Positions 20,283 to 42,360 of a DNA stretch of 64,000 nucleotides are shown here, in pieces (position 1 is the stretch's first letter; each line of letters begins with the position of its first letter). The stretch is from Cyanobium usitatum str. Tous. GTDB lineage: Bacteria; Cyanobacteriota; Cyanobacteriia; PCC-6307; Cyanobiaceae. Made by a program: the position numbers and the translations under genes. The notes under the pieces were generated by a model. That model ran no database searches. It was not told the origin of the DNA and saw only the letters and a list, made by a program, of their open reading frames with translations. The DNA lies in assembly GCF_003011885.1 (NCBI RefSeq), contig NZ_PXXO01000008.1, forward strand, positions 1-64,000. Reading direction: 5' to 3'.

Positions 20283-20325
20283 CCTGGCCCCGAGATGGTG
20301 TGGTGGGCGACGTAAGTTGCTTGCC

Positions 20326-21561
20326 ATGCAAGTGCCCCCGTTCAGCCTCAGCGAGCAGATTCAGGAGCTGGGCGCAGCTCTCGATCAGGCTGTGCTCGAG
20401 GTTTTGCGCAGTGGTCAGTACATCGGCGGAGCCACGATCTCCCGCTTTGAAACCGACTTCGCCACGGCCTGTGGCGTGCCCCACGCCATCGGCTGCAACA
20501 GCGGCACCGATGCCCTGATCCTGGCCCTGCGGGGCTTGGGCATCGGTCCAGGCGATGAGGTGATCACGGCTTCCTTCAGCTTTTTCGCCACCGCCGAAGC
20601 GATCAGCGCCGTGGGCGCCACGCCGGTGTTTGTGGATGTAGAGGAGAGCAGCTACCTGATCGATCTCGATCAGCTGGAAGCGGCGATCACGCCGGCCACC
20701 CGGGCCCTGCTGCCTGTGCACCTGTTCGGGCGGCCCGTGGACATGGAGCGGGTATGTGCCATCGCTGAACGCCATGGCCTCAAGGTGGTCGAAGATTGTG
20801 CCCAGGCCACCGGTGCCAGCTGGGCGGGCCGGCCGGTGGGCAGTTGGGGGGATGTGGGCTGTTTCAGTTTTTTCCCCACCAAGAATCTTGGCGCCGCTGG
20901 CGATGGAGGGGCGATCACCTGCCGGGATGCCGAGCTGGCCCAGGTCATCCGGGAGCTGGCGGTGCATGGCATGCCCCGCCGCTATCTGCACACCGCCCTG
21001 GGCTACAACAGCCGCCTTGACGCCATCCAAGCCGCCGTGCTCACCGTGAAGCTGCCCCATCTGGGCCGCTGGGTGGATCGTCGTAGGGCTATCTCGGCCC
21101 TGTATCGCCAGCAATTGGCAGGCCTTGGGGGCGTGCATCTGCCTGAAGCGGGCCTCACTGGCCACAGCTGGAATCAGTTTGTGGTGCGGGTGCCAGGCAC
21201 CCCATCGGGGGTGAAAGCTTGCGCTGTGGCCTGTAATGGCTCTAACCAAGCGGCGGACTGTGTGTCTTCCACCGACAGCGCCGACTTCGGCCTGCCGGAA
21301 GCCTGCTGCCGGGATTGGCTCAAGCAGCAGCTCCAGAACGCTGGCGTCAGCACGATCATTTACTACCCGATCCCCATCCACCGCCAGCCGGCCTATGCCG
21401 AGCTGGGTTACGGGCCGGGCTCCTTGCCGATCACTGAGCGTCTCTGTTCCGAGGTTCTCAGCCTGCCGATCTTCCCCGAACTCTCAGTTGACCAGCAGCA
21501 GCAGGTGATTGCGGTGCTCGGTCAGCTGGTGGGCGCGGCTCAGTCGGCGGTTGCGGCCTGA
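20326..21561 (+). CDS. DegT/DnrJ/EryC1/StrS-family sugar aminotransferase
   Basis: PLP-dependent aminotransferase of 411 residues that typically aminates a nucleotide-linked keto-sugar for surface glycans. Evidence: NSGTDALILAL, DEVITASFSFFATAEA, VHLFGRPVDM, EDCAQATGA and the PLP lysine in FFPTKNLGAAGDGG (K186). The C-terminus has the usual IYYPIPIHRQPAY. Between about residues 291 and 328 there is an extra segment of roughly 30 residues with five cysteines that the family normally lacks. An ATG at 20326 fits the family N-terminus (PPFSLSEQIQ); the frame is open further upstream without homology. Confidence 0.88.
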   Translation: MQVPPFSLSEQIQELGAALDQAVLEVLRSGQYIGGATISRFETDFATACGVPHAIGCNSGTDALILALRGLGIGPGDEVITASFSFFATAEAISAVGATPVFVDVEESSYLIDLDQLEAAITPATRALLPVHLFGRPVDMERVCAIAERHGLKVVEDCAQATGASWAGRPVGSWGDVGCFSFFPTKNLGAAGDGGAITCRDAELAQVIRELAVHGMPRRYLHTALGYNSRLDAIQAAVLTVKLPHLGRWVDRRRAISALYRQQLAGLGGVHLPEAGLTGHSWNQFVVRVPGTPSGVKACAVACNGSNQAADCVSSTDSADFGLPEACCRDWLKQQLQNAGVSTIIYYPIPIHRQPAYAELGYGPGSLPITERLCSEVLSLPIFPELSVDQQQQVIAVLGQLVGAAQSAVAA

Positions 21562-21595
21562 GTAGGTCAAATTCGATGGGCGTTAACCACAGGCC

Positions 21596-22756
21596 ATGCA
21601 GCGGTTCTTGACCCGGGGATGGCTCATTCAGAGGACCTTCCGCCTACGGAAGAGACGGCTTTTTCTGCTGGGCGTATTGGTGCTTTGCTTAGCTCCACCG
21701 GCAGCTGCTCAGGATGTGTTGCGCATCGGCGTGGTAGATGATCAGGCTCCCTGCTCGGATGTGGTCAATAGGAGCTTTGAGGGCAGCGCTGTTGATGTCT
21801 GGTACCAGGTGGCCAGCAGGGCAGACCTGCTCCACACTTTCGTTGCGCTGCGCAAGCCTGATGAGGCAGTTCGCGCGGCTGCCAGAGGCCAGGTTGATCT
21901 GGTCGTGTCGTGCCTGAACATCACCCCGTTCCGGCTGTATGAGGCTGCCTTTACAACGCCATACAGCGACGACGGGCTCTCACTCCTGACTAGACGCGAA
22001 CAAAGCAGCTTTGCCACAATCATTAAAAATCTAAGGGCCAGTGCAATCATCCGAGACTCGATCGCTCTGCTGATTGGTCTCGGCCTTGGCTTCGCTCTGA
22101 TCCTCTGGATCACATCGCGAGAGTTCCAGCATCGCGACATTGTTGGAGACAACAAGCGAGCCACCTTCTACAAAGGCTGGATGATGCTTGCCATGGGAAC
22201 AGGCATCTACAAGATGGGCTCCGCACCATTGAGCATGTCGATCATTGCGCTCAATAATTTTGTCCGCTTGGTGATCACCTCGATCTTTGTGGCTGGAACC
22301 ACCAGCGTGGTGCTCAAGGTCTCCAAACCAGTAGACATCAGCAATGCGAAGGACCTGCACTCAGCTCTCGAGGACAAGATTGGAGTGGTCTCCGACTCCG
22401 TGGCCCAGGCGTGGCTGGACCGCTCAGCGGATGCATTTTTGACAGCCGAAGATCAGCTAAAAATGATTGTTCCTTTTGATAGCTCTAGCGCCATGGTGGC
22501 TAGCCTGGAGCAGGGCAATGTGGGCAGTGTTCTTGCCGACTCAGCCAGCATCGCTACAATGAAAAGAAAAATAATTCATCCCAACGACTATGAAATAGTT
22601 GGTGAAACGCTCTACCGCACTCCACAGGCTTTTGCTGTTGGAGCAAGACTTGATGAGAAGACGCTAAAGAAGGTCAATGTCGCCCTAGCCCAACTGAAGT
22701 TCGAAGGAGAGGTAGATCGCACCCTCAAACGCTGGCAACCGGCTCACAATCACTGA
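21596..22756 (+). CDS. Ionotropic-glutamate-receptor-like membrane protein with periplasmic-binding fold
   Basis: A 386-residue protein with, in order: basic N-region and signal peptide ending near APPAAAQ (about 34-39); first lobe of a solute-binding domain (about 40-140) with NITPFRLYEAAFTTPY, which matches the amino-acid-binding motif (arginine R113) of glutamate receptors and glutamine-binding proteins; a hydrophobic helix at about 154-172; a re-entrant-like segment GWMMLAMGTGIYKMG (about 194-208); a second helix at about 218-240; and the second lobe (about 250-380) with VLADSAS. This S1-M1-P-M2-S2 order is that of prokaryotic GluR0 channels. The canonical K+ filter TVGYG is absent. Base composition is visibly more AT-rich than neighbours. 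Ligand and ion are unknown; a sensor without conductance is possible. Confidence 0.7.
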   Translation: MQRFLTRGWLIQRTFRLRKRRLFLLGVLVLCLAPPAAAQDVLRIGVVDDQAPCSDVVNRSFEGSAVDVWYQVASRADLLHTFVALRKPDEAVRAAARGQVDLVVSCLNITPFRLYEAAFTTPYSDDGLSLLTRREQSSFATIIKNLRASAIIRDSIALLIGLGLGFALILWITSREFQHRDIVGDNKRATFYKGWMMLAMGTGIYKMGSAPLSMSIIALNNFVRLVITSIFVAGTTSVVLKVSKPVDISNAKDLHSALEDKIGVVSDSVAQAWLDRSADAFLTAEDQLKMIVPFDSSSAMVASLEQGNVGSVLADSASIATMKRKIIHPNDYEIVGETLYRTPQAFAVGARLDEKTLKKVNVALAQLKFEGEVDRTLKRWQPAHNH

Positions 22757-22771
22757 TTTCCGGCTTACTTG

Positions 22772-24259
22772 TTAGCCCTTGATCGTGGCGTAAAGCGCCT
22801 TGAAGCGCGCCTGCTGAACTTTGTGGTTCACCAGAGGCGCCGGGTAGCCGCGGCGCTCCAGCGGGGCGATCTCCCCACTGATCAGGTCGCGGGTGGCCAC
22901 GTGCCGCAGTTCCGGCAGCCAGGTGCGGATGTAGGTGCCCTCGGGATCAAACTTGCCTGCCTGGGTAGCCGGGTTGAAGATGCGCAGCGGTTTGGGGTCC
23001 ATGCCGCTGCTGGCGCTCCACTGCCAGCCGCCGTTGTTGGCGGCCAGATCGCCATCCACCAGGCGCGCCATGAAGGCCGCCTCGCCCCAGCGCCAGTCGC
23101 AGATCAGGTCCTTCACCAGGAAGGAGGCCACGATCATGCGGCAGCGGTTGTGCATCCAGCCGCTCTCGTTTAGCTGGCGCATGGCGGCATCGATGATCGG
23201 CATGCCCGTGAGTCCCTCGCGCCAGGCTTCAAACCAGCCGCTGTCGTTGTCCCAGGGGAAGGCGCGCCACTGGGGCCGGTAGGGCCCTTCAGCCAGCTCG
23301 GGAAAGTAAAAAAGTGCCTGCTGGTAAAACTCGCGCCAGGCCAGCTCCTGCTCCCACACCTGGATTGAGTACCGCTCCTCCTCGCTGCGGGCCAGCGGCC
23401 TGGCCTGCTGGGCGGCGGCCCAGGCCTGGCGGGGGCTGAGCGTGCCGAACTTGAGGGCGGCGCTGAGCCCTGAGGTGCCCGCTTCGCCGGGGATGTTGCG
23501 TCCCGGTTCGTAGCCAAGCAGCGAAATGGAGCGGCTATCGCCATCGCAGAAGGCTGCCAGCTGCTCTTGGGCCGCTTTTTCGCCAGGACGGCAGGGGCAG
23601 AGCTCAGCACCTCCAAAGCCGTGCTCCAAAAAGCCATGCTTCAGCTCCGGGTTGGTGAGCGGTAGGTCTGCCAGTGCTCCGGCGAGCTGGGCGGGATCAA
23701 GATCGATCAGGGCACTTGGCGGCGGCAGGGGGTCCAGGCCACCCGAGGCTGCTGTGCCGGTAGCGCTCGCCTCCTCCACCCAGCGGCGCCAACTGCGCCA
23801 GTAGGGCCCGTAGACCCGATAAGGGTCGCCAGCGCCTGTTTTGAGGGCTTCCGGCGCCACTAGGAGCTGGTCCCAATCGGCCAGCACCTTGCGGCCATCC
23901 GCCTGCAGCGCCCGCGCCACCCGCCGGTCGCGCTCGCGCCCGAAGGGTTCCACGTCCCGGTTCCAGGCCACCACCGCGGCGCCCAGGCCAGCGGCCAGGC
24001 GGGGCAGCAGCTCGGCTGGATCACCTCGCAGTACCACCAGCGTGCTGCCGGCCTGCTGCCAGGCCTGCTGCAGCTCCCGCAGGCTCTCAGAAAGAAACCA
24101 CAGCCTCGCTGGGGCCATGCTGGGATCCGAGAGGATGGCCGGATCCAGCACGAACACCCCGGTCACGGCAGGGGTGGCGGCGGCGGCCGCCGCCAGGCCC
24201 CGGTTGTCGGCCAGGCGCAGATCGCGGCGATGCCAAAACAGCCAGCGCTCCGGAGCCAT
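22772..24259 (-). CDS. phr: Deoxyribodipyrimidine photolyase
   Basis: Light-dependent repair of cyclobutane pyrimidine dimers. The 495-residue protein has a complete two-domain architecture: alpha/beta domain beginning LFWHRRDLRLADN, and FAD-binding domain with WRWGEAAFMARLVDGDLAANNGGWQW and RIFNPATQAGKFDPEGTYI. The segment around residues 37-60 resembles class I enzymes of Anacystis type that use 8-hydroxy-5-deazaflavin, but the antenna cannot be proved. Its ATG shares one base with the NUDIX stop (TAATG), so the two genes are probably co-transcribed. Confidence 0.93.
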   Translation of the reverse strand: MAPERWLFWHRRDLRLADNRGLAAAAAATPAVTGVFVLDPAILSDPSMAPARLWFLSESLRELQQAWQQAGSTLVVLRGDPAELLPRLAAGLGAAVVAWNRDVEPFGRERDRRVARALQADGRKVLADWDQLLVAPEALKTGAGDPYRVYGPYWRSWRRWVEEASATGTAASGGLDPLPPPSALIDLDPAQLAGALADLPLTNPELKHGFLEHGFGGAELCPCRPGEKAAQEQLAAFCDGDSRSISLLGYEPGRNIPGEAGTSGLSAALKFGTLSPRQAWAAAQQARPLARSEEERYSIQVWEQELAWREFYQQALFYFPELAEGPYRPQWRAFPWDNDSGWFEAWREGLTGMPIIDAAMRQLNESGWMHNRCRMIVASFLVKDLICDWRWGEAAFMARLVDGDLAANNGGWQWSASSGMDPKPLRIFNPATQAGKFDPEGTYIRTWLPELRHVATRDLISGEIAPLERRGYPAPLVNHKVQQARFKALYATIKG

Positions 24260-37954: not shown

Positions 37955-39080
37955 TCTGGGACGGCGGCGGGTTTTGTTTGTGGCAGGTGAGGCGTCGGGA
38001 GATCTCCATGGCGGCTTCTTGGTGCGCGAGCTGCAGCGCCAAGTGCCGGGGGTAGAGATAGCAGGGGTGGGCGGTGACCAACTGCGCGCCTGCGGAATCG
38101 ACATCCTGGCCGACGTGCGAGTGCTTTCTGCGGTTGGCTTGGTGGAGATCATCGGTAGTCTTCGCCGTCACCACCGCGTGATGGAGTTGTTGAAGCATCA
38201 GATGGATAACCATCGCCCGGATGTGGTGGTGCTGGTTGACTATCCCGGTTTCAATATGTTTGTGGCTAAGGAGGCTAAGAAGCGCGGCATTCCTGTGTTT
38301 TTCTACATTGCGCCCCAGGTTTGGGCCTGGGGCCAGGGAAGGGCCAAAAAGATGGAGCGAATAATTGAGCGCCTGGCGGTAATTTTCCCGTTTGAGGAGC
38401 CCATCTTTAATGCCCATGGCCGCGACTTTGCTCGCTATGTGGGCCATCCACTAGTGGATGAGCTCCAAGTCAGTTGCTCCCGTGAGCAGACGCGGCTTCG
38501 CCATGGGTTATCTCTGGAGCAGTCCTTGCTTGTGTTGATGCCTGGCAGCCGCAGGGCTGAGGTGCGGATGCTGTTGCCCGCCATGCTGAAAGCTGCCAAC
38601 CAGCTCAAACTCGATGGTTGGCAGGTTGTCTTACTGAAGGCGCCCACCATCGATCGCTCCTATTTGGAGCAGGCGAATGGTGGAGAGGCACTGCCGGTTC
38701 CCCTGGTTGATGGCGACGCCCATAACCTGCTGCATGCTGCCGATGCTGGTGTGATCGCCTCTGGCACAGCCACCCTCGAGGCGGCCTTGCTGGGTTGTCC
38801 CCATGTGATTCTTTATCGCTTCTCCTGGCTTACCTATTTGATTGCCAGGCTGGTAATTGGCCAGCGCTCAATGGGTCTACCCAATGTTATTCTCGGGAAA
38901 CAGTTGTTTCCCGAGTTAGTTCAGAGGCATGTGACGGCTGACAAAATTGTGAGATCCCTCCACAGCCTTGAGCGTAATCGGGCCTTGTTTAATCAATCTG
39001 TGCAGGAGTTGCAGGCAACCATGGGCCCACCTGGCGCATCCAGGCGAGCGGCCGATGAATTAGTAGGCTTGCTTAAATGA
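37947..39080 (+). CDS. lpxB: Lipid-A-disaccharide synthase
   Basis: GT19 enzyme of 377 residues joining lipid X and UDP-2,3-diacylglucosamine. Evidence: FVAGEASGDLHGG at the N-terminus, VDYPGFNMFVAKEAK, FYIAPQVWAWGQGRAKKM, LMPGSRRAEV and SGTATLEAALLG. The ATG at 37947 overlaps the lpxK stop by 8 bp. The second half, and all of the next gene, are noticeably richer in A and T than the genes upstream. Confidence 0.93.
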   Translation: MVDLGRRRVLFVAGEASGDLHGGFLVRELQRQVPGVEIAGVGGDQLRACGIDILADVRVLSAVGLVEIIGSLRRHHRVMELLKHQMDNHRPDVVVLVDYPGFNMFVAKEAKKRGIPVFFYIAPQVWAWGQGRAKKMERIIERLAVIFPFEEPIFNAHGRDFARYVGHPLVDELQVSCSREQTRLRHGLSLEQSLLVLMPGSRRAEVRMLLPAMLKAANQLKLDGWQVVLLKAPTIDRSYLEQANGGEALPVPLVDGDAHNLLHAADAGVIASGTATLEAALLGCPHVILYRFSWLTYLIARLVIGQRSMGLPNVILGKQLFPELVQRHVTADKIVRSLHSLERNRALFNQSVQELQATMGPPGASRRAADELVGLLK

Positions 39081-40825
39081 GTGCACAAATTTATCAACGG
39101 CTGGCTTATTATGGCCGCCGCCATTTGTGGCCGAGCTTTTCTCTGGCTCTATTCTTTAATTTTCTGTATGGTGCGTCAACCGGCTTCGTGCCATTAGTAA
39201 TTCGCTACCTTTTTGATGATATTTTGCCTTCGAGTGATCGAAGTCGCTTGTATTTGGCGCCTGTAGCCATACTTGTGGTCATGGTACTTAGGGCGGCATC
39301 TCAATATTTAGGAGCCTATCTAACTGAGACTGTGGGCCAGTCAATCACGGCTGACTTGCGCCATCAGCTTGCTGAGCGAATATTAGATTTGCCCCAGTCC
39401 TATGTGGATCGCAATTCCTCCACCGTATTGGTGTCTCGAGTGCTCACTGATGTGTCACTCGTCAAGAGCGGAATTGTTGATGGTTTTTCATCTATATTTA
39501 AAGATTCCCTAACTCTCCTGGTTCTGGTTTGTGTGGCCTTTTATCAAGATTGGCTGCTGTCTTTGATCGCTTTCATCCTTTTCCCTGTAGCGATTTTACC
39601 GATTCTCAACTCATCTAAAAAAGTCAGGCGTCACTCTGGTAAAGGGCAGCTGAGTCTGGCCAAGTTGGCTTCATTCCTCCAGGAGTCGGTAATCGGCTTG
39701 CGGGTGGTCAAGATCTTCGGTATGCAGGCCTATGAGTTGTCGAGGTTTGATCAAGAGAATCAATCGGTTTTAAAGGCTGCCCTAAAGACCACTCGGGCCA
39801 AGCTTGCTAATCAGCCATTGATGGAAGTAATAGGTGCGATTGGTTTTAGTGCCGTTTTGGTATACGGTGGTGAAAACGTAATTGCCGGTACGCGTACGAC
39901 TGGTAACTTTTTTGCATTTTTAACATCTCTCTATCTGTGCTATGCGCCCTTTAAGGGGATTGCTAAGTCTAATTCAACATTGCAGCAAGGGGTTTCTGCC
40001 GCCAGTGATTTATTCAATATTCTCGATACTAAGCCTGAGCCTCCTGAGGCTTCCAGCCCCCAGTCCTTAAACAGCGTTTCCGAAGGCCTTGTGGCGAGGA
40101 ATGTCTCTTTTGCTTATGGCGATGATCTGGTTATCGATGACTTATCTTTAGAGCTGCCTTGCAGCAGCACTGTCGCATTGGTTGGATCTAGTGGTGGCGG
40201 CAAAAGTACCATAATTGATTTATTTTGTCGCTTTTACGACCCCAGCTCAGGGGTTATATCAATTGATGGCATTGATATTCGCCAGCTTTCGCTGGCGTCG
40301 CTGCGCTCCTTGATTTCAGTTGTTGATCAAAATACATTCCTTTTTAACGACACTGTTGCTAACAATATTGCCTATGGCTTGTCTTCGGCTTCCTCGTCCC
40401 AAATTGAGGCTGCTGCAAGGGCTGCGAATGCTCATGATTTCATTATTCAACTGCCCGAGGGCTATGCCACCCTTATTGGAGAAAACGGCACGATGCTCTC
40501 CGGCGGACAGCGTCAGCGGATTGCAATTGCGCGCGCATTAATTAAGGATGCGCCCTTGCTGTTTCTGGACGAGGCCACCTCTGCCCTCGACTCTGCCTCT
40601 GAGCAAGTGGTGCAAGAAGCCCTAGACCGATTGATGGCTGACCGCACCACCTTGGTAGTGGCCCATCGCCTCTCCACTGTGGTTAATGCCGACTGCATTT
40701 GTGTAATTGCGGGTGGTCGAGTGGTTGAGTCGGGAAATCACGCCACCCTGCTAGCTCGCGGCGGCACTTATGCCGACCTATTTTCGACACAATTCGCAAA
40801 CGCTGACGCGGGATCGCCAAGATGA
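39077..40825 (+). CDS. msbA: MsbA-type lipid flippase (ABC exporter)
   Basis: Half-transporter of 582 residues: six-helix membrane domain (about 20-320) and an ATPase domain with Walker A GSSGGGKST (about 371-379), signature LSGGQRQRIAIARAL (about 474-488) and Walker B LLFLDEATSALD. Starts with ATGA overlap with lpxB. Position after lpxB suggests that it flips lipid A/core or a related glycolipid across the inner membrane. Sequence alone cannot separate MsbA from other lipid or peptide exporters; the operon gives most of the specificity. AT-rich codon use compared with neighbours. Confidence 0.83.
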   Translation: MSAQIYQRLAYYGRRHLWPSFSLALFFNFLYGASTGFVPLVIRYLFDDILPSSDRSRLYLAPVAILVVMVLRAASQYLGAYLTETVGQSITADLRHQLAERILDLPQSYVDRNSSTVLVSRVLTDVSLVKSGIVDGFSSIFKDSLTLLVLVCVAFYQDWLLSLIAFILFPVAILPILNSSKKVRRHSGKGQLSLAKLASFLQESVIGLRVVKIFGMQAYELSRFDQENQSVLKAALKTTRAKLANQPLMEVIGAIGFSAVLVYGGENVIAGTRTTGNFFAFLTSLYLCYAPFKGIAKSNSTLQQGVSAASDLFNILDTKPEPPEASSPQSLNSVSEGLVARNVSFAYGDDLVIDDLSLELPCSSTVALVGSSGGGKSTIIDLFCRFYDPSSGVISIDGIDIRQLSLASLRSLISVVDQNTFLFNDTVANNIAYGLSSASSSQIEAAARAANAHDFIIQLPEGYATLIGENGTMLSGGQRQRIAIARALIKDAPLLFLDEATSALDSASEQVVQEALDRLMADRTTLVVAHRLSTVVNADCICVIAGGRVVESGNHATLLARGGTYADLFSTQFANADAGSPR

Positions 40826-42360
40826 CAGTTGCCGCTTCTCAGCCCACTGGTTTTCAGCCCGCCTATGAGCGTCACGATTGGTCCAGCGCCTTTCGCAACG
40901 TCGGTGTTGAACTAAGCGACGTTCCCTTAGAGCCCGTGCGTGGCACGATCCCGGCTGAGCTCAAGGGCACTTTGTTCCGCAATGGGCCAGGCCGGCTCGA
41001 GCGGGGTGGCCAGTGGGTTCATCACCCATTTGATGGCGACGGCATGATCAGCGCCTTCCGGTTTGAGGGGGGGCAAGCCCGACTCACCAACCGCTTTGTG
41101 CGCACCGAGGGCTGGCTGGCTGAGGAGCAGGCCGGTCGCTTCGTTTACCGGGGGGTCTTCGGCACCCAAAAGCCTGGAGGGCCCCTCGCCAATGCTTTTG
41201 ATCTGCGCCTCAAGAACATCGCCAACACCCATGTGGTGCAGCTGGGTGACCAGCTGCTGGCGCTCTGGGAAGCGGCCGAGCCCCACGCCCTTGATCCCCG
41301 CACCCTCGAGACCAGGGGGCTCTCGCGGCTCGAGGGTCTGCTCAAGCCAGGAGAAGCTTTCAGTGCCCACCCCCGCTTCGATCCAGGTCACCACGGCGAG
41401 CCCCGCATGGTCACCTTCGGTGTCAAGGCGGGCCCCACCAGCACCGTTCGCTTGATGGAATTTGCCAGCGCAGACCAGCCAGATGGTGTGCGCGCCGGCG
41501 ATCTGGTGGCTGACAGTCGCCACAGCTTTAAGGGTTTTGCCTTCCTGCATGATTTTGCGATCACACCCAGCTGGGCTGTGTTTCTGCAGAACGCTGTGGC
41601 GTTTAACCCCCTGCCGTTTGTGCTCGGGCAGAAGGGGGCGGCCCAATGCCTGGCTTCCAAGCCCGGTGAGGCCGGCCAGTTTTGGTTGGTGCCTCGCCAG
41701 CCGGGACATCACGCCGGCGCCCGCCCCCTGCTGCTACCTGCTCCTGAAGGCTTTGTGTTCCACCACCTCAATGCCTTTGAGGATCCGGCCACCGGCGAGG
41801 TGGTGGTGGATTCGATCTACTACGACGATTTCCCTTCGATTGGCCCGGAGGTTGATTACCGCGAAATCGATTTCGACTCGATACCTGAGGGCCAGTTGCG
41901 CCGTTGCCGGATAGACCCCAGCAGTGGCACGGTGCGGAGCGAGTGGTTGGAGCAGCGCTGCTGTGAGTTCGCCATGGTTAATCCGGCAAAGCAGGGCCTA
42001 AACGCCCGCTTCGCCTGGATGGCGGTAGCGCAGCGGGAGCGGGGTAATGATCCGCTCCAGGCGATTGAGAAGCTCGACTTGCAGACCGGCGAACGCCTGG
42101 TGTGGAGTGCGGCCCCCCGCGGTTTTGTCACCGAACCGGTGATGGTGCCCCGCTTAACTGATGACTCACCCGAAGAAGGGGCCGCAGAAGACATTGCTGC
42201 AGAAGACAGTGGCTGGGTGTTGGTGCCGGTTTGGAACGGTGCTCGCTGCGCTACGGATCTGGTGATCCTCAACGCTGCCGATATGACTGAGCAAGCCGTG
42301 CTCGAGCTTCCCCTCGCCATTCCCTATGGGCTGCACGGCAGTTGGTCTGCGACTGCCTGA
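40822..42360 (+). CDS. Carotenoid cleavage oxygenase (apocarotenoid oxygenase-like)
   Basis: 512-residue member of the retinal pigment epithelium/CCD family with non-heme iron. The four histidine ligands are visible in FSAHPRFDP, FLHDFAIT, VFHHLNAFED and LHGSW. Typical N-terminus: LKGTLFRNGPGRLERGG and HHPFDGDGMI. The family cleaves carotenoid or apocarotenoid double bonds; the best-studied cyanobacterial example gives retinal. A substrate cannot be assigned. It begins with ATGA overlap with the exporter, so it is last in the lipid operon. Ends abutting convergent rdgB with no gap. Confidence 0.88.
   Translation: MTVAASQPTGFQPAYERHDWSSAFRNVGVELSDVPLEPVRGTIPAELKGTLFRNGPGRLERGGQWVHHPFDGDGMISAFRFEGGQARLTNRFVRTEGWLAEEQAGRFVYRGVFGTQKPGGPLANAFDLRLKNIANTHVVQLGDQLLALWEAAEPHALDPRTLETRGLSRLEGLLKPGEAFSAHPRFDPGHHGEPRMVTFGVKAGPTSTVRLMEFASADQPDGVRAGDLVADSRHSFKGFAFLHDFAITPSWAVFLQNAVAFNPLPFVLGQKGAAQCLASKPGEAGQFWLVPRQPGHHAGARPLLLPAPEGFVFHHLNAFEDPATGEVVVDSIYYDDFPSIGPEVDYREIDFDSIPEGQLRRCRIDPSSGTVRSEWLEQRCCEFAMVNPAKQGLNARFAWMAVAQRERGNDPLQAIEKLDLQTGERLVWSAAPRGFVTEPVMVPRLTDDSPEEGAAEDIAAEDSGWVLVPVWNGARCATDLVILNAADMTEQAVLELPLAIPYGLHGSWSATA

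Follow-up and report, generated by a model that had tools for sequence, protein, structure and literature searches.

A predicted GluR0-like receptor of Cyanobium usitatum with a different, constrained pore loop and no potassium filter

A 64,000-nt stretch of the Cyanobium usitatum str. Tous genome (contig NZ_PXXO01000008.1, positions 1 to 64,000; hereafter the window) encodes a predicted receptor that, judged from its sequence, keeps the S1-M1-P-M2-S2 order and the ligand-binding arginine and acid of GluR0, but has a different, constrained loop and no potassium filter. Our best explanation, to which we give an even chance, is that the protein is an iGluR-like, ligand-gated channel of the plasma membrane that is not potassium-selective. 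The receptor type and filter-less prokaryotic members are already known (Ger et al. 2010). The filter-less subfamily to which the protein belongs, with a cysteine pair in S1, Gln344, an arginine in M2 and mostly a G-x-G in the loop, looks new, and a claim of a new channel family is at this stage a modest one pending conductance. In the literature searched, the potassium-selective GluR0 was the one cyanobacterial receptor of its kind with a measured function. A family with a different conserved pore is natural material for studying how the potassium pore relates to the non-selective iGluR pore, and if the explanation is true, ion flow set off by amino acids would be a form of sensing new to common planktonic cyanobacteria.

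Architecture of the predicted receptor

The earlier note had read the gene as a GluR0-type receptor with a signal peptide, an amino-acid-binding arginine in its first half lobe and MGTGIYKMG where GluR0 has TVGYG, and all of these points were borne out (Table 1). Hydropathy averaged over 19 residues peaked at residues 33 (signal peptide), 164 (M1) and 231 (M2). The putative signal peptide, assigned by eye, has a basic n-region, a hydrophobic core and a cleavage-like AAAQ end. Pfam SBP_bac_3 gave a single match to residues 42-381 (E 4.9e-17) that was split in two, which points to separate S1 and S2 halves. The solute-binding domain is divided by the membrane part as in the GluR0 type (Group 1), and S1 and S2, carrying Arg113 and Asp315 respectively, lie on either side of two helices and a pore-loop-like segment as in prokaryotic iGluRs in the wide sense. 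A linker joins M1 to the pore-loop segment, and S2 closes the protein. Arg113 lies in NITPFRLYEAAF (residues 108-119). MGTGIYKMG was found at residues 200-208, within a pore segment reading AMGTGIYKMG, and TVGYG was absent from the window protein and from 9/9 members of alignment A1, which covers branch A, the motif-defined group to which the protein belongs.

Table 1. Features of the receptor gene and its neighbours in the window
Feature	Position	Strand	Remarks
DegT-type aminotransferase, upstream neighbour	20299..21561	+	name by recognition
Receptor ORF, branch A of the filter-less picocyanobacterial family	21596..22756	+	ATG start, 386 aa
Signal peptide, residues ~1-38	21596..21709	+	read from sequence; hydropathy peak
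S1 half of ligand-binding domain, residues 42-140	21719..22015	+	Pfam SBP_bac_3
Cys53, first of S1 cysteine pair	21752..21754	+	70/71 family rows, 0/45 potassium-type
Cys106, second of S1 cysteine pair	21911..21913	+	defines 71-row family; 0/45 potassium-type rows
Arg113, predicted ligand alpha-carboxylate contact	21932..21934	+	79/79 filter-less, 44/45 potassium-type rows
M1 membrane helix, residues ~154-174	22055..22117	+	hydropathy; low-confidence model helix
Pore-loop segment TFYKGWMMLAMGTGIYKMGSA, residues 190-210	22163..22225	+	top-conserved in branch A; low dN
G201-T202-G203, loop G-x-G	22196..22204	+	66/71 rows of cysteine-defined family
M2 inner helix, residues ~217-241	22244..22318	+	hydropathy; low-confidence model helix
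Arg224 in M2	22265..22267	+	69/71 family rows, 0/45 potassium-type
S2 half of ligand-binding domain, residues 242-382	22319..22741	+	Pfam SBP_bac_3; profile comparison
Asp315, predicted ligand alpha-amino contact	22538..22540	+	Asp/Glu in 78/79 filter-less rows
Deoxyribodipyrimidine photolyase, downstream neighbour	22772..24259	-	name by recognition

Profile comparison also agreed with the proposed order. The branch A and potassium-filter profiles gave a colinear alignment (E 2.6e-24) that starts ahead of S1 and extends to the end of S2. That of branch B, a second filter-less group, aligned over nearly full length with both branch A (E 4.7e-49) and the potassium type (E 7.7e-32). In a search of solved structures S1 matched the binding domain of GluR0 (Slr1257, 1iit; E 1.4e-6), and the window protein matched the kainate 3 receptor weakly over residues 98-380 (E 0.0048). 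The branch A profile of nine relatives matched plant GLR3.4 in one stretch that spans S1, the membrane part and S2 (E 3.8e-9).

Chance origin was rejected because full-length relatives occur in many genomes and the pore segment is highly conserved. An ORF artefact was ruled out by the full-length relatives in other genomes, and a pseudogene by the open frame together with low dN in the pore. Rfam gave no match at gathering threshold within the 64-kb window. In 21400-22900 the repeats consisted of two short direct pairs within the gene, with no inverted pair and no mobile-element likeness, and all promoter-like consensus sites lay inside the gene.

Ger et al. 2010 (PMC2950845), in its account of prokaryotic receptors, describes 22 of S1-M1-P-M2-S2 topology with the arginine in S1 and the aspartate in S2 conserved; 12 with a potassium filter form Group 1, which includes proteins named 'Possible ligand gated channel (GIC family)', and 10 with unrecognised pore regions form Group 2. 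GluR0 (Slr1257 of Synechocystis sp. PCC 6803) is of Group 1. Its membrane orientation has been measured, with both termini outside, and it rescues a potassium-uptake-deficient E. coli strain (PMC13099474). The window protein has in common with GluR0 the domain order, the ligand arginine and aspartate, two membrane helices and a cyanobacterial host. Unlike the GluR0 type, which has TVGYG and whose relatives match channel models, it has AMGTGIYK, matches no channel model and carries the S1 cysteine pair, the arginine in M2 and Gln344. With Group 2 it shares the topology and a pore without recognised selectivity. The bilobed ligand domain interrupted by a channel is also the plan of eukaryotic iGluRs (kainate, AMPA, NMDA and plant GLR); however, the window protein is without their amino-terminal domain, M4 and SYTANLAA motif, and its M2 reads TSIFVAGTTSVVL.

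A filter-less subfamily and its distribution

We aligned 143 rows (114 + 29) and kept 124; the other 19 were duplicates, fragments or broken frames. Among those dropped are two truncated potassium-type genes (L109 and L129) and the divergent receptor gene L023, which is interrupted by stops; its genome, G234, carries a branch B gene and a potassium-type gene as well. Potassium-type rows were defined by TVGYGD or TIGYGD (45 rows) and the filter-less family by a cysteine at the Cys106 position (71 rows); 8 rows had neither. This survey of the pore across homologs, an approach the earlier note had favoured, thus placed 71 of the 124 rows in the filter-less subfamily. By pore motif the 71 rows divided into 9 of branch A ([MV]G[TS]G[IT]YKM), 55 of branch B ([TS]G[PES]G) and 7 divergent rows (L032, L036, L024, L040, L041, L072 and L039), which have the cysteine pair and loops unlike those of branches A and B; L024 and L040 come from one genome.

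The family and the potassium type differed at several positions. Cys53 was present in 70 of 71 family rows, the exception being a fragment, and in none of the 45 potassium-type rows; the S1 cysteine pair is perhaps a disulphide. Gln344 was invariant in the family (71/71), where the potassium type has tyrosine in 44 rows and phenylalanine in one. Arg224 was found in 69/71 rows, compared to serine, threonine, alanine or glycine in 45/45 potassium-type rows, and Val232 in 64/71, compared to threonine in 45/45. The G-x-G at 201/203 was kept in 66 of 71 rows, a count made on the cysteine-defined family because branches A and B are assigned by a pore motif that itself contains G-x-G; it is not in itself a family difference, since the potassium type carries its own G-Y-G. 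The predicted ligand contacts were retained, with Arg113 in 79/79 filter-less rows, in agreement with the arginine assigned in the earlier note, and aspartate or glutamate at 315 in 78/79. Branch B, for example L002, shares the cysteine pair, G-x-G, M2 arginine and Gln344 with the window protein; its pore loop, ATGPGTNT, is unlike the window's. Four rows (L082, L084, L085 and L086) represent a second, separate picocyanobacterial filter-less type with the pore LVGGADNK and without the cysteine pair.

The pore columns were left out of a quick tree of the 124 rows, on which the cysteine family formed one side of a branch (1 change) and the potassium/non-potassium label required 2 changes compared to a shuffled mean of ~37. 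The branch separating 52 potassium-side rows from the remainder had an SH-aLRT of 94 and was not starred, and the fork that would separate the very long row L116 was drawn open. A single branch likewise set off branch B but not the 9 motif-defined branch A rows (2 changes), among which the divergent L024 and L040 fell. Fine placements are unsure because several long branches meet.

A full-text search of openly licensed literature, which returned mostly listings, found no description of a cysteine-pair, M2-arginine subfamily, and no electrophysiological recording or functional test of a member was found in the literature searched.

The window's own genome has a full-length paralog of branch B (L002, 26% identical), a gene (L003) that reads as an ABC binding-protein/permease fusion, and no potassium-filter relative at E up to 1. 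Within the genus 7 of 16 genomes matched at E 1e-5; among them branch A was found only in the window's genome, and the other full-length matches were 25-28% identical to the window protein. In the bacterial family 96 of 300 sampled genomes matched at E 1e-8. Classified rows came from 93 of these, with branch B in 55, branch A in 9 and the potassium type (TVGYGD) in 31, the last an under-count because the query was the window protein. The other three genomes contained a branch A-like fragment (G116; L030, too short for alignment), a branch B-like fragment (G136) and a TVGYGD gene (G228). The rows L011-L014 come from Cyanobium and Synechococcus and coincide with loci of genomes G061, G206 and G091, and on this ground we took the sampled family to be picocyanobacterial. 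It had been stated that picocyanobacteria are not known for such receptors; the matches in 96 of 300 family genomes indicate that they do carry them. Two of the GIC-family entries of Group 1 presumably come from marine picocyanobacteria. The listings of Ger et al. 2010 likewise go against the statement.

Outside the bacterial family, a search of the phylum with branch A and branch B profiles (386 genomes) found 46 matching genomes. Mostly five candidates were scored per genome and mostly the best match of each genome was read, giving 48 outside-family rows (16 + 32) with at least one from each of the 46 genomes. None of the 48 had a cysteine at 53 or 106 or an arginine at 224, and none had a glutamine at 344, where two short rows were unscored. 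The cysteine-pair subfamily is therefore confined to picocyanobacteria among the rows examined. The 48 rows comprised 32 with TVGYGD or TIGYGD, two with FGYGD and fourteen with a shortened QADEMP-like pore. The FGYGD rows (L184 and L196, from other cyanobacteria) read TFGYGD. The shortened rows (L140, L142 and twelve among L172-L190, also from other cyanobacteria) adjoin potassium-type rows on the tree where they were placed, and are possibly Group 2 of Ger et al. L140 and L142, which we assign to Group 2 by inference, differ from the window protein in falling with the potassium-type rows and not with branch A, and have phenylalanine/alanine at the cysteine positions, alanine/glycine at 224 and tyrosine at 344. 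A scan of viral contigs with profiles of branch A, branch B and potassium-type receptors found no relative.

The pore loop and what the receptor may do

Conservation was highest in the pore segment of branch A, where the mean pairwise identity was 0.78 for residues 190-210, compared to 0.51 for S1 and 0.40 for S2. No 21-residue stretch of the mature protein was more conserved than this segment (rank 1/326, nine branch A relatives), and its conservation was reached by 0 of 2000 column permutations; the set of nine includes one fragment and two sequences close to each other. Against the three nearest relatives pore-segment dN was 0.00-0.04, compared to 0.12-0.46 for S1 and S2, with a dS of 1.50 against L011, saturation against L013 and only 0.29 against L012. 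M1 and M2 were equally conserved between the window protein and L012 (dN 0.02 and 0.00). Against five farther branch A relatives loop dN was 0.08-0.26, still below S1 and S2 (0.47-0.94). Low dN where synonymous change is present argues against a decaying pore, and as the most conserved stretch the branch A loop probably keeps a role. The branch B loop was not unusually conserved (rank 28/321, reached by 1591 of 2000 permutations), which limits the constraint argument to branch A.

The membrane part alone was more difficult to compare. Branches A and B still matched (E 4e-6). Branch A against the potassium type aligned M1 only (E 0.028, probability 1.8%), and branch B against the potassium type gave a marginal match (E 0.0024, probability 12%) with GPG under GYG. 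A membrane-part profile of A + B (20 rows) searched against solved structures gave a best E of 0.84, with M1 only. The Pfam channel models PF00060 and PF07885 (Lig_chan and Ion_trans_2) both matched 8/8 potassium-type relatives, but 0/9 branch A and 0/11 branch B sequences at E 0.1. Since the channel models were unmatched and the membrane-part alignment was weak, the pore loop is identified by its position between S1 and S2. For the same reason, the membrane part alone having no significant alignment to the potassium type, the register of the loop against TVGYG is uncertain. Three registers were considered, set by a tryptophan anchor from hhalign, by the multiple alignment and by a G-x-G anchor, which is the one hhalign chose for branch B. 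They differ in the residues that they set against TVGYGD, and as significance does not separate them we claim no residue-to-residue assignment to the filter. An AlphaFold2 monomer from 5 sequences (mean pLDDT 44.6, pTM 0.31) had helices at 150-176, 187-200 and 213-240, with 187-200 placed like a pore helix, at a confidence too low to use.

The preferred reading of a ligand-gated channel would work as follows. By analogy with GluR0 and iGluRs, the two periplasmic lobes would use Arg113 and Asp315 to bind an amino-acid-like ligand, and closure of the lobes would pull on M2 in a tetramer and open the pore, with the AMGTGIYK loop predicted to form its narrow part. Potassium selectivity would have been lost: most of TVGYGD is replaced in any register and M2 carries the basic Arg224, so that the pore is probably not potassium-selective. 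Against this reading stand the lack of a significant alignment of the membrane part to the potassium type, the unmatched channel models, the poor AlphaFold2 model, the ordinary conservation of the branch B loop and the loop dN against farther relatives. In addition, the inner helix carries a basic residue, and this could block the pore.

This last point leads to the main rival, that the protein is a ligand-binding receptor that does not conduct, its loop and Arg224 packed in a closed core and its signal passed on by a change of shape or as a partner of another protein. It would fit the near-invariance of Arg224 where the potassium type has small residues, the loss of matches to the Pfam channel models, and the result that at E up to 1 the window's own genome yielded no potassium-filter relative with which mixed channels could be built. 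However, the branch A pore loop is more constrained than the ligand domain, G-x-G is kept in most family rows, and the protein, ending with S2, has no cytoplasmic output domain. We consider this rival possible though rather unlikely. The suggestion in the earlier note that conductance was lost is accordingly weakened for branch A by the constraint on the loop, and stands as one of the possible readings.

A bolder version of the channel reading is that the subfamily is a separate picocyanobacterial class of GluR0-related channels whose loop carries G-x-G and whose inner helices form an arginine ring, and which are either non-selective or permeable to anions; we regard this as doubtful. The M2 arginine ring would then be a bacterial counterpart of the arginine-edited pore known from animal AMPA receptors, and arginine-edited AMPA-type pores also pass some chloride. 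The parallel to the GluA2 arginine is loose because Arg224 lies in M2 and not in the loop. In the GluA2 pore the glutamine-to-arginine change lowers calcium permeability (PMC3483616). Acidic residues in 190-236 averaged 0.44 in branch A, 0.36 in branch B and 1.00 in the potassium type, and the net charge of 175-212 was +3.0, +4.1 and +3.5, respectively; that the net charge is not strikingly different argues against a simple anion channel.

A potassium channel of GluR0 type whose filter is degenerate yet still selective is improbable. A G-x-G survives, and other genomes of the bacterial family have true TVGYGD receptors, two of them alongside a branch A gene, but most TVGYGD residues differ in all three registers and the potassium-type rows are, by definition, TVGYGD or TIGYGD in 45/45. 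The least probable alternative, that the protein is a membrane-anchored binding protein passing amino acids to an ABC transporter without any channel, draws on the best Pfam and NCBIfam matches, which are indeed ABC-type binding proteins, and on the fusion L003 in the same genome. By reading, however, L003 has a continuous binding domain followed by its membrane part, whereas in the window protein, as in GluR0, the helices interrupt the binding domain and separate S1 from S2. No permease model matched the window protein at E 1, and the genes on either side look like an aminotransferase and a photolyase, not like transporter genes.

Locus and origin of the gene

The receptor gene is more AT-rich than its surroundings, as had been noted from the letters, with a GC of 54.2% compared to 64.2% for the window and a GC3 of 62.0% compared to 76-83% for four neighbouring genes. 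Its closest relatives were likewise poorer in GC than their surroundings (L011, 54.0/70.0%; the fragment L012, 56.5/70.4%; L013, 52.9/62.2%). We searched 15 genus mates for the flanking genes and found both in 13, and in all 13 the receptor site was empty. The gap between aminotransferase and photolyase in these mates was 0-64 bases by match coordinates, compared to ~1.2 kb with the receptor in the window genome. The same junction was occupied in two other genera. In G061 the receptor gene L011 lies between both flanks, and in G206 (L014/L012) the junction is split over two contig ends with one flank on each. L013 is located elsewhere, between genes reading as htpG and shikimate dehydrogenase.

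The two flanks pointed to different nearest relatives when 8 of the 13 mates were compared. The window aminotransferase gene was nearest to those of G014, G012 and G011 (85.6-86.6% DNA identity) and the photolyase gene to those of G007 and G015 (89.6-89.9%); the photolyase genes of G014, G012 and G011 were only 74% identical to the window's. From these identities the locus (20299-24259) looks like a recombination mosaic, which fits acquisition through homologous recombination across the aminotransferase gene. Acquisition of the receptor gene by transfer, raised in the earlier note, is plausible given the empty site and the AT-rich gene, and the empty sites in genus mates may also come from repeated loss. 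Elsewhere in the window, GC drops to 47-57% in 38001-41000, a region that takes in the last part of an ORF resembling lipid-A-disaccharide synthase and an ORF for an MsbA-like ABC transporter (39077-40825), both named by recognition.
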